This document shows, in pieces, positions 2,041 through 11,646 of a stretch of 17,492 nt of DNA. The DNA lies in NCBI GenBank assembly GCA_002450295.1, contig DJYX01000043.1, positions 1 through 17,492 on the forward strand. Reading direction: 5' to 3'. Position 1 is the stretch's first letter; each line of letters opens with the position of its first letter. Source of the DNA: Deltaproteobacteria bacterium UBA6967. GTDB lineage: Bacteria; SAR324; NAC60-12. Under the pieces are notes generated by a model. The model did not search any database and was not told where the DNA came from. It saw only the letters and a program-made list of their open reading frames with translations. The position numbers were made by a program, and so were the translations under genes.

Positions 2041-3744
2041 CTATTCACCCAGAACCAATCCTTCTCTACGTGGATCTGCCCCACCAACCAGTCCACCTGA
2101 TGAGACAACAATCCCCTGAATTCCGCTCGTGAGTGAACGCACACTAACTTTGTGTCCCCGTTGTTCCAACTCTGCTTTCAGTTGCTCTGCAGGGGTTTCT
2201 GCTTCCAAGTCTAGGGTACCAAAATTTTTGGCTAGGTTCGGCAGATTAATCGCGTCCTGTATATCCATGTTCCATTCAAGTACCCCCAACAGAGTTTTTG
2301 CAACGTATGGAATGATCCGACTACCGCCAGGTGAGCCAACAGCCATGTGTAACTCACCTTTTGCGTTGAACACAAGTGTAGGAGACATCGAAGAGCGAGG
2401 ACGCTTCCCGGGTTCAAGTCGATTGGCAATCAAGCGACCATTCTGTTCCGGTCGGAAAGAGAAATCGGTTAATTCGTTGTTGAGCAAAAATCCCCTGGTC
2501 ATCAGGCGAGAGCCAAAGCCGTTTTCAATAGTGGTCGTCATACTGACAGCGTTGCCTTGAGCATCTACAATTGCAAAGTGACTCGTAGAGGGGAATTCTA
2601 GCGACATGTCAGGACTAAGTTGATAACTCAAAGCTTTCGGCGGTGAGCCAGCAGACAGATTACCGGAGGCTTTACTCGGATCGATCAACTTGGACCGCAT
2701 CTCTAAATATTCCGGATCAAGCAAACCTTCAGTTGGCATGTCTACATAGTCACTATCCGCCATGTAAAGACCTCGATCTTTAAATGCCAGTTGGTTGGCC
2801 TCTGCAAAAAGATGGGTGAAGTTCAATCCGTTTGGAGACAGGTCTCGCAAATTGAAGTGACTTAGCATCCCCAACATTTGTCCAATGGTAAGTGCTCCTG
2901 AAGAGGGTGGTCCCATTCCACAAATTTGATACTGCTTGTAGTCATGGCAAATTGGTTGTCTCTCAATAACCCAATAATTTCTTAAATCAGCGAGTGATAG
3001 TTTGCCTGGGTTACCCTTTGCTTCTTGAACAGTACGAACAATGTCCCTCGCAATTTCACCATAGTAAAATGGGTCGCTACCCTCTGCGGCAATCAGGCGC
3101 AATGTTTTGGCGAAATCTGGATTACGCAACAAAGTTCCCTCGGGAACTGGCGTATCACTGTCTAGGAAGAAATATGATTTTGTTGCTGGGAAAGTTTTCA
3201 AACGTTTTGCATCCCTCTCCACCGATGCCGCTAGCCTTTTGGAAACCCTGAAGCCCTCTTCAGCAAGTTTAATTGTCGGTTGCATCAACTCTCGCCAAGG
3301 GAGAGAACCAAAGTTTTTATGGGTGACTTCTAGGAGTTTCAATGTTCCTGGTGTTCCAACAGAGCGACCCCCTACAACACCTTCAAAAAATTTCAGAGGG
3401 CCGCCATCCTCTTTGAGAAACAAGTCTCCCTTTGCCTTGAGTGGTGCTGTTTCCCTACCGTCAAAACTGGTAACTTCCTTCCGTTTGGCATCATAAAACA
3501 ACAAGAAAGCACCACCACCAATCCCAGAACTCTGTGGTTCCACAAGATTCAGCATGAGTTGAACACCAACCATGGCGTCAATCGCATTGCCTCCCCTGCT
3601 TAGAATATCGTAGCCAACTTGGGAAGCCACTGGATTTGCAGTAGCTACCATGTACTTGAGCGCTTTCTTGGAGCTTTGGGCAAATGCCGGATTCCACAAG
3701 AAAGCAACAAAGACCAAGCTAGAGAACAGTCTATTAAAAATCAT
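2041..3744 (-). CDS. ggt: gamma-glutamyltransferase (glutathione hydrolase)
   Basis: Periplasmic N-terminal-nucleophile hydrolase that removes or transfers the gamma-glutamyl group of glutathione and related peptides. The 567 residues match the usual length. A signal peptide ends near AFA-QS (residues 20-24). The proenzyme should cleave itself before Thr387 in STSHF, and that Thr then acts as nucleophile (large subunit before it, small subunit after it). Other family features are visible: GRETAP (Arg97, substrate carboxylate), the SSMSPT segment (451-456), GSPGG (470-474, oxyanion region) and the closing GADPRREG. The ATG at 3744 is preceded by GAAGGG. It is a single gene on the minus strand, with noncoding gaps of 413 bp downstream and 314 bp upstream. 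Glutathione salvage is the expected role; acylase-type relatives cannot be fully excluded. Confidence 0.95.
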   Translation of the reverse strand: MIFNRLFSSLVFVAFLWNPAFAQSSKKALKYMVATANPVASQVGYDILSRGGNAIDAMVGVQLMLNLVEPQSSGIGGGAFLLFYDAKRKEVTSFDGRETAPLKAKGDLFLKEDGGPLKFFEGVVGGRSVGTPGTLKLLEVTHKNFGSLPWRELMQPTIKLAEEGFRVSKRLAASVERDAKRLKTFPATKSYFFLDSDTPVPEGTLLRNPDFAKTLRLIAAEGSDPFYYGEIARDIVRTVQEAKGNPGKLSLADLRNYWVIERQPICHDYKQYQICGMGPPSSGALTIGQMLGMLSHFNLRDLSPNGLNFTHLFAEANQLAFKDRGLYMADSDYVDMPTEGLLDPEYLEMRSKLIDPSKASGNLSAGSPPKALSYQLSPDMSLEFPSTSHFAIVDAQGNAVSMTTTIENGFGSRLMTRGFLLNNELTDFSFRPEQNGRLIANRLEPGKRPRSSMSPTLVFNAKGELHMAVGSPGGSRIIPYVAKTLLGVLEWNMDIQDAINLPNLAKNFGTLDLEAETPAEQLKAELEQRGHKVSVRSLTSGIQGIVVSSGGLVGGADPRREGLVLGE

Positions 3745-7799: not shown

Positions 7800-8477
7800 T
7801 CAAAAACTCCAGAATGGCCCTGTCATTCCTAATTCAGCAAACATTGCCTGTGTTGAGTCACCCGAGCGTCTTTCCCAATGTTTTTCTGCTCGCCCAGAGT
7901 ACCACTGAATCGCCAATTGATGGCAGGTTTGAAGAGAAATCATTGCTCCATGATTCTGATCTGTTCTCTTCAACCAATTCTGCAAATGTGCTTTCGAACT
8001 GAAAGCGAGGATGGTAGCTCAGGTGAAACCAATTTTTTCCCAGAACTGTCTTGCAGGAACAACAAAATGCACAACCCATTCGGAGGTAATTGGCTGGTTT
8101 TTACCAATCAAAAAATCCAAATGATCATTACACTCTCCACACCCGCACGGAGTGTGACCTTCGGTATTTTTGCCCAGGATGGCAGCAATACCGAAGACAT
8201 CCCAAATTCAATTGCCGTAATATTTTTTCCCGTCTATTTTGGCCGTGTAGTTGGTAGGCAAAGCAGAAAATGGATGAGCCATCCAGATCGAGTGGCTACC
8301 AGGAGCCAGTGCAATATCATGTGTAGCCGCAAGCCGCTCGAAAGCGCTTTCTATTTTATTAATCGGCAGTTGAAATCGTTTTGCAGTTTCTTCTGTCGTC
8401 GGTGGTCTCAATGCACTTATGAAGGTTTGATATATGAAGTGCCTCACCTCAGTATCAAGCGTAGATTCTTCAGCCAT
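7800..8477 (-). CDS. merB: MerB-type organomercurial lyase homologue with two in-frame UGA (predicted selenocysteines 90 and 153)
   Basis: One frame runs 225 codons from the ATG at 8477 (GGAG 9 nt upstream) to TGA at 7802-7800, interrupted only by TGA at 8210-8208 (codon 90) and 8021-8019 (codon 153). The frame resembles the alkylmercury lyase family throughout: a winged-helix N-terminus (DTEVRHFIYQTF...RPPTTEETA), IWMAHPFSALPT, YYGN-U-IWD, TPCGCGEC, EWVVHFVVPARQF, GFT-U-ATILAF and the C-terminal FAELGMTGPFW. From recalled MerB R831b, Cys96-x-x-Asp99 equals U90-x-x-D93, Cys117 equals C111 (ungapped), and Cys159 (or its neighbour Cys160) equals U153; the 63-residue spacing is the same as Cys96 to Cys159. 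MerB cleaves carbon-mercury bonds with Cys96, Cys159 and Asp99. Both catalytic thiols would therefore be selenols. C111-x-C113-x-x-C116 adds nearby thiols. No other mer gene is adjacent. Selenoprotein status is inferred; mercury substrate is by family only. Confidence 0.88.
7990..8006 (-). promoter_or_regulatory. candidate bacterial SECIS element for UGA codon 153
   Basis: On the minus strand a 6-bp perfect stem, GCTTTC paired with GAAAGC, closes a 5-nt loop AGTTC. The loop starts 18 nt after the TGA at 8019 and has G at its second position followed by U, as in the E. coli fdhF element (loop AGGUCU about 17 nt after UGA). Spacing and loop agree with known bacterial SECIS rules. SelB binding is inferred. 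Confidence 0.6.
8159..8196 (-). promoter_or_regulatory. candidate SECIS hairpin for UGA codon 90
   Basis: A perfect 10-bp stem (CTTCGGTATT with AATACCGAAG) starts 11 nt after the TGA at 8208. It continues across a 2x2 internal loop into TGCC/GGCA with apical loop ATCCTG, 27 nt after the TGA. The stem is remarkable inside a coding region, but the loop lacks the usual early G. An alternative fold pairs GGGATG (8203-8198) with CATCCT (8181-8176) and exposes GGT 16 nt after the TGA, closer to the canonical pattern. Confidence 0.5.
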
Positions 8478-8616
8478 GGTTCTACTCCAAAATTCTCAGG
8501 TTACATGTTTCCTGATTTGAAAAGGACATTCTAACGTGAATTCTCAGTATAGAGACGCGATGAAGGTGGTTTTTATTTGGTGAATGCATGAACTTGACTG
8601 AGCACACATATTTTCC

Positions 8617-11316: not shown

Positions 11317-11646
11317 ATGTCATCAAACACCCCCGATAACTCTCGAAGACGCTTGCTAAAAATGGCAGCCACAGGAGCTCTGCTAGCACCCTTCGCAAAA
11401 TTTACCAGCCAGGCAGCATACGCCGGTGGTCACGAGAAGAAGTTGGAGTTAGACAATCCACAAGCCAAGGCCCTTCAATACGTTCACGTTGCCACTGAAT
11501 CAACAAGTCCTCTCTACAAGGATGGATCCATCTGCGGCAATTGTATTCAGTGGAAGGGAGGAGATGCTGAGTGGGGCCAATGCGTTCTTTTCGCTGGCGT
11601 TGTTGTAGCGAATGCCGGGTGGTGCTCAGCATGGGCAAAAGGATGA
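11317..11646 (+). CDS. high-potential iron-sulfur protein (HiPIP), Tat-exported
   Basis: Periplasmic one-electron carrier holding a [4Fe-4S] cluster that cycles between +2 and +3. The 109 residues start with a twin-arginine signal (SRRRLLKMAATGALLAPF, residues 9-26). The mature part has the HiPIP cysteine order C73-x-x-C76, C89 and C103 in SICGNCIQWKGG, WGQCVLF and GWCSAW. The ATG at 11317 has GGAG 6 nt upstream. HiPIPs pass electrons from the bc1 complex to terminal oxidases or reaction centres (family knowledge). No such complex is in the window, though a cytochrome c gene is present at the left edge. It appears to be monocistronic. Confidence 0.95.
   Translation: MSSNTPDNSRRRLLKMAATGALLAPFAKFTSQAAYAGGHEKKLELDNPQAKALQYVHVATESTSPLYKDGSICGNCIQWKGGDAEWGQCVLFAGVVVANAGWCSAWAKG

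Follow-up and report, generated by a model that had tools for sequence, protein, structure and literature searches.

A MerB-family gene with in-frame TGA codons at both catalytic cysteine positions: a predicted double-selenocysteine protein within a mostly single-selenocysteine family

Introduction

The organomercurial lyase MerB is the textbook enzyme of methylmercury breakdown; its two catalytic cysteine columns bind one mercury atom, and selenium binds mercury very strongly. The nearest known system to the one described here is SaoL, a MerB-like protein with a single selenocysteine (Sec) and the organometallic lyase of the selenocysteine-assisted organometallic (SAO) system. Here we analyze a MerB-family gene in a 17,492-nucleotide stretch of DNA (contig DJYX01000043.1, referred to in full as the window) from Deltaproteobacteria bacterium UBA6967, in which TGA codons occupy both catalytic cysteine positions. 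Sequence comparisons indicate that both UGAs are very likely read as Sec, and the gene is predicted to encode a double-Sec MerB homologue within a large, little-noticed family of selenoproteins, most of them with a single Sec.

The accessible parts of two reviews, PMC13188914 and PMC9312934, list one MerB-like selenoprotein, given in the former as SaoL with one Sec in the motif CU, whereas the window protein has two predicted Sec residues. Two Sec residues per protein, as predicted here, are found in the double selenoproteins MbdU, MduS and the UxxU FmdB-like proteins, some of them metal-related, but these belong to other families and none is described in the same part of PMC13188914 as a MerB with Sec in two catalytic positions. 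Full-text literature searches, which did not cover the SaoL papers of Haft and co-workers cited in PMC13188914, found no double-Sec MerB, and word searches inside PMC12013277, PMC2398784 and PMC5029168 found no mention of MerB.

Results

The gene and its catalytic columns

The gene begins with an ATG at 8477 and ends with a stop at 7800-7802, on the minus strand; TGA codons 90 and 153 are its sole internal stops, and there is no frameshift. The features of the frame are as follows:

7800..8477, minus strand: MerB-family gene, 225 codons plus a TGA stop, with two in-frame TGA codons predicted to encode Sec
8485..8488, minus strand: GGAG, resembling a ribosome-binding site by its sequence, upstream of the ATG
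8208..8210, minus strand: TGA codon 90, predicted Sec, aligned with MerB Cys96
8199..8201, minus strand: Asp93 codon, aligned with MerB Asp99
8145..8147, minus strand: Cys111 codon, in the region aligned with MerB Cys117
8019..8021, minus strand: TGA codon 153, predicted Sec, aligned with MerB Cys159
7800..7802, minus strand: terminal TGA, taken as a true stop; the related L032 frame ends in TAG

The initial annotation had described this open frame with two TGAs, and had placed Asp93 at +3 and Cys111 at +21 of the first TGA with 63 codons between the two; all of this was confirmed. Translated through both TGAs, the protein scores 74.1 bits against the Pfam MerB family PF03243, for which the curated cut-off is 27 (E = 1.3e-20), and the family-profile alignment, with MerB numbering checked, gives the correspondences listed above. 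A phmmer search of the PDB with the window protein returned no match, while the family profile did match MerB structures. The AlphaFold model of the protein has the MerB fold (predicted local distance difference test score 95.7), and this fold is shared with MerB of R831b (PDB 3f0o, 3f2f and 1s6l) and MerB2 (5c17) over 180-188 residues at only 14-16% identity in structural alignment. Canonical MerB has two catalytic cysteines where the window protein has predicted Sec, the aspartate being kept, and the protein falls far below the cut-offs of the canonical MerB models in NCBIfam (NF009710, 26 versus 193 bits; NF033555, 18.1 versus 200 bits). Matches of its N terminus to the winged-helix domains of LexA, DtxR and SelB were put down to a common winged helix. 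By fold, residues and family the protein would be an organometal lyase.

SaoL, like the predicted window protein, is a MerB-related selenoprotein, but the window protein scores only 30.3 bits against the SaoL model NF040728, the cut-off of which is 140 bits. The 159-position model ends where the second Sec of L031, a member of the second subfamily described below, aligns, so the Sec of SaoL, compared here via its model only, probably lies at the same second site. No SAO family was found among the ten window frames, a part of the total, that were scanned against NCBIfam, with no search for SAO genes made beyond the window.

Recurrence of the double TGA

Twelve of 52 genomes of the window's phylum have a MerB-family match, and exactly two TGAs are present in seven of the 13 matches: the window gene, those of three congeners, two from genomes of another family in the order and one from another family in the class. 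Chance nonsense mutation at both codons, which the initial annotation had judged very unlikely, is excluded by this recurrence, as the TGAs fall in the same two columns in all seven. The genes of the three congeners have 225 codons each and encode proteins 85-92% identical to the window protein; two further congeners (G033 and G037) have no MerB-family match. Among the window gene and its three congeners, the ratio of nonsynonymous to synonymous substitution rates is 0.15-0.30 before the first TGA, 0.10-0.24 between the TGAs and 0.06-0.31 after the second, which indicates purifying selection on each of the three segments. The gene is therefore no pseudogene, since selection acts on every segment and three congeners, as well as three genomes from other families of the phylum, share both TGA columns.

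The remaining three of the seven genes, from the other two families, form a second double-TGA subfamily (L030-L032), which is 20-23% identical to the window protein and has Glu in place of Asp93; Asp or Glu stands at +3 of the first site in seven of the eight sequences compared, the exception being L023 with Cys. Among 400 Chloroflexota genomes, 59 have a MerB-family match (56 above the cut-off), with two TGAs in seven matches from five genomes and one TGA in 18 matches. Four of these seven are of the L031 type, and the other three (L144, L148 and L149) form a third subfamily, with UAIDAIA or UAVDAVA at the first site, FURNSVFFWSEEHA or close variants at the second, and the SECIS-like (selenocysteine insertion sequence-like) element CTTCTGGTCAGAAG 3' of the second TGA. 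By phmmer, these three match neither the window protein nor that of L031. Double-TGA forms are present in three MerB subfamilies, the third seen here only in Chloroflexota. The Chloroflexota scan also revealed two adjacent MerB-family matches, one with an in-frame TAG (G349:C30:238-1282).

Relatives with selenocysteine at the second site

A scan of 84,980 species genomes identified 284 relatives, of which the best 80 (L033-L112) were kept. Of these, 77 combine a first-site Cys with a second-site TGA (C/U), and three have Cys at both positions (C/C); genes with two TGAs (U/U) could not appear in this set because the scan patterns match only where one of the sites is a Cys codon. The relatives come from Gemmatimonadota, Actinomycetota, Acidobacteria, Chloroflexi, Marinimicrobia, Calditrichota, Verrucomicrobia, Phycisphaerae and others, mostly as metagenome-assembled genomes. 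The C/U relatives belong to the PF03243 family and are 29-44% identical to the window protein over the best segment, but differ from the window gene in the Cys at the first site and in a GGUC hairpin loop. The initial annotation had proposed a search for other TGA-containing homologues; these were found, as the 77 C/U relatives and the double-TGA genes of the phylum and of Chloroflexota.

Gene prediction often truncates proteins of this family at the UGA. With the window protein as query, 25 matches were obtained: three are full length with Trp at both sites (86, 56 and 54% identical), the gene caller having read TGA as Trp, 19 stop just before the second site, one (P0017) stops just before the first, and two are unclassified. 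A query of the L031 type gave 616 matches, and among the 120 listed, 44 have Trp at both sites (W/W), 75 have Cys and are cut before the second site, and one is C/C. For the two queries together, 94 of the 145 matches listed stop right before the second site; for 10 of the 75 L031-type and three of the 19 window-query proteins, in which the alignment itself ends a few residues earlier, this class was assigned by length and tail. The cut-off proteins of the C/U type carry names such as hypothetical protein or organomercurial lyase.

The contents of the two columns were examined in an alignment of 129 loci (L037, from the same genome as L035, was left out) and 11 of the 145 proteins, chosen as W/W or C/C. 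L142 was unmatched, and 10 of the 139 matched rows were dropped for low profile coverage, leaving 129 rows, three of them repeats. In all 129, both columns hold only Cys or TGA, in answer to the question raised by the initial annotation: 83 rows are C/U, 22 C/C, 14 U/U and 10 W/W, the last being counted as TGA to give 24 U/U. In a quick tree of these rows, in which a long-branch warning touches the third subfamily, the U/U state needs four changes, at least two of them forced by well-supported branches, which makes repeated gain of the second Sec probable.

SECIS-like hairpins

In the 77 C/U relatives, a hairpin lies 3' of the second TGA, its loop GGUC (with few variants), within the codons for Phe-Arg-Ser-Glu. 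The hairpin's own codons are nearly invariant (TTC in 77 of 77, CGG in 76 of 77, TCG in all 74 with Ser, GAA or GAG in 77 of 77), unlike the Leu and Val codons nearby, which vary. Of the cells of the 7-bp stem, 93.0% are paired, compared to 39.5-63.5% when slid, and 30 are doubly changed against 9.0 +/- 2.5 in shuffles (none of 500 as high). Because the loop is kept, the stem changes are compensatory and the synonymous codons are frozen, this hairpin bears the mark of a bacterial SECIS. The same loop follows the second TGA in L030-L032, L143 and L145-L147, and the third subfamily has CTTCT-GGTC-AGAAG there, with a compensated stem. At the first site of L030-L032 a six-pair stem with the loop GGTCT or GGTCA is possible. 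The window gene has two candidates:

7990..8006, minus strand: SECIS candidate, perfect 6-bp hairpin with loop AGUUC, 12 nt after TGA 153
8151..8203, minus strand: candidate first SECIS, long stable hairpin with a non-canonical loop after TGA 90 (-24.3 kcal/mol, z -4.85)

The second-site candidate, GCTTTC-AGTTC-GAAAGC, has G at the second position of its loop, is identical in the window gene and its three congeners (4/4), and is located where the relatives have the GGUC hairpin. For the longer hairpin, none of 200 shuffles reached as low an energy, and the hairpin is a likely candidate for a first-site SECIS in the window gene, with the reservations on its loop and on the congeners given below.

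Selenocysteine machinery and genetic code

The window's genome, which is 69% complete, contains tRNA-Sec (60.1 bits; SeC by ARAGORN), SelB (366.7 bits), SelD (378.4 bits) and SelA (514.8 bits), that is, all of the machinery for which the initial annotation had proposed to search. The SelD gene itself (L016, G000:C163:8671-9588) has one in-frame TGA, and SelD is thus likely a selenoprotein as well. SelA is above its cut-off in 45 of 48 tested genomes carrying relatives. The genetic code is not altered, because TGA terminates eight of the 15 other window frames checked.

Gene neighborhood and MerA

No recurrent neighbor was found among 685 neighboring frames at 79 C/U or C/C loci; the largest cluster, an ABC transporter ATPase at scattered distances, is present at ten of the 79, and gene neighborhood was set aside as evidence of function. 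A pyridine nucleotide-disulphide oxidoreductase gene lies near the C/U gene, on the opposite strand, at only three of the 79 loci, at a distance of 120 bases in L065 and L073 and 2.4 kb in L091. With up to 18 candidates scored per genome, MerA is above its cut-off in eight of 77 genomes searched, including two of the seven double-TGA genomes of the phylum and three of 45 C/U genomes, which rules it out as a general partner. Since 69 of the 77 are without MerA above the cut-off, product handling or substrate may differ.

A MerA-like reductase match below the MerA cut-off lies in a 731-residue open frame of the window's genome (G000:C173:7284-8654), and comparable matches, in frames of about that size, occur in several of the phylum's genomes. 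Two MerA-like pyridine nucleotide-disulphide oxidoreductase matches have one in-frame TGA each (G004:C226:1084-2409 and G009:C201:10043-11371) and are possibly Sec-containing reductases. Elsewhere in the window are a high-potential iron-sulphur protein with a twin-arginine-like leader (11317-11646) and a gamma-glutamyltransferase above its NCBIfam cut-off (2041-3744).

Discussion

The contents of the homologous columns, the recurrence of the double TGA, the Sec machinery of the host, purifying selection and the SECIS-like hairpin at the second site (that at the first being less clear) support the proposal of the initial annotation that this is a double-Sec MerB. The proposal holds as a prediction of Sec. 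The gene is no isolated oddity, as 77 of the best 80 relatives have a single Sec and the double TGA is found in three subfamilies. We regard it as probable that the window gene encodes a MerB-family protein in which both catalytic cysteines are replaced by UGA-encoded Sec and which cleaves carbon-mercury bonds via two selenolates.

Several observations weigh against this interpretation. Tyr occupies the first column in P0019, one of the 19 proteins cut at the second site and outside the aligned set. In the window gene, the hairpin at the second site is no more stable than shuffles (z 0.15), and its AGUUC loop is unlike GGUC; the first-site hairpin has no G in the first two loop bases, those of the congeners are weaker (z -2.21, -2.90 and -1.75), and the first-site stretch of L030-L032 folds no better than shuffles (z 0.41, -0.76 and 0.00). 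SelA discriminates poorly, being present in 28 of 32 tested genomes of the phylum with or without the MerB-like gene. In Chloroflexota the contrast is likewise weak: SelA is present in 21 of 21 genomes with a TGA-containing MerB, 29 of 35 with a MerB lacking TGA and 16 of the 20 tested, out of 341, with no match (three genomes with matches below the cut-off were left out). Co-occurrence with SelA was dropped as proof of Sec, the contrast being weak in both the phylum and Chloroflexota. Two of the seven double-TGA genomes of the phylum are without a full SelA, G002 having a piece at a contig end and G043 none. Finally, no mer family was found among the ten window frames scanned, and the best MerA candidate in the incomplete genome of the window scores 384.7 bits, below the cut-off of 454.45.

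Two readings of the TGAs that do without Sec were rejected as virtually impossible. Were they true stops, the gene would be decaying or would encode an 89-residue piece only, as standard frame calling has it for the window gene, with similar truncation of its relatives, but this is refuted by the pair of TGAs that seven genomes of the phylum and five of Chloroflexota share at identical columns, and both purifying selection after each TGA and the frozen hairpin in the relatives argue against it. Reading of TGA as tryptophan in the host would agree with the full-length W/W proteins given by gene callers that use such a code; however, the relatives carry Cys rather than Trp in both columns, TGA serves as a terminator in the window, and tRNA-Sec, SelA, SelB and SelD are all present.

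Alternatives that accept both Sec residues concern what the protein does. It is unlikely, in our estimation, that it acts mainly on another substrate (organotin, organoarsenic or organoselenium) or as a metal trap. The scarcity of MerA and the lack of recurrent neighbors or mer families reported above would suit such a role, and in PMC8261052, Hg(II) removal by MerB without MerA is questioned and the 99Ser variants are considered possibly broader organometal enzymes. In contrast, the protein retains the MerB fold, the catalytic carboxylate (Asp93, replaced by Glu in the L031 type) and the two columns of mercury ligands. A redox enzyme on the MerB scaffold, a thiol oxidoreductase or peroxidase with a diselenide between its two Sec residues, seems very improbable. 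The two columns are close in space, because both bind one mercury in MerB, and the selenoprotein families reported in the last decade are mostly thiol-based oxidoreductases, according to PMC9312934. Neither site of the window protein has a CxxC-like motif, however, the acidic residue at +3 is retained as in MerB with the one exception noted above, and the commonest form of the family has one Cys and one Sec.

For the favored organomercury-cleaving double-Sec protein, the hairpin 3' of each UGA would direct SelB to deliver Sec-tRNA there. In a mechanism modelled on that of MerB, the organomercurial would be bound by one selenolate, which the second would join, Asp93 would protonate the leaving carbon, and the two seleniums would hold Hg(II) until its removal by thiols or a partner. 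Selenolates, being deprotonated at neutral pH, have a higher affinity for mercury than thiolates do, which would favor attack and slow product release. We infer organomercury cleavage, which selenols would perform better. In model chemistry selones are reported to cleave Hg-C bonds faster than their sulphur analogues (PMC11639659), and how Hg(II) is removed from MerB without MerA is an open question in PMC8261052.

A broader and more doubtful proposition is that much of the organomercury-cleaving capacity of uncultured bacteria may reside in a branch of MerB with Sec at the second site, which would have been upgraded repeatedly and independently to an all-selenolate, MerA-free form with an inert Hg-Se product, its genes cut short by annotation and discarded by merB surveys. 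A published deep-ocean merB screen demands Cys at position 159 (PMC11308531), a requirement that would exclude C/U and U/U genes. This bears on mercury cycling: as the double replacement recurs in distant bacteria, merB surveys that require Cys would probably miss such genes. With selenium in both catalytic positions, the chemistry of Hg-C cleavage discussed here would be directly testable in a natural protein.
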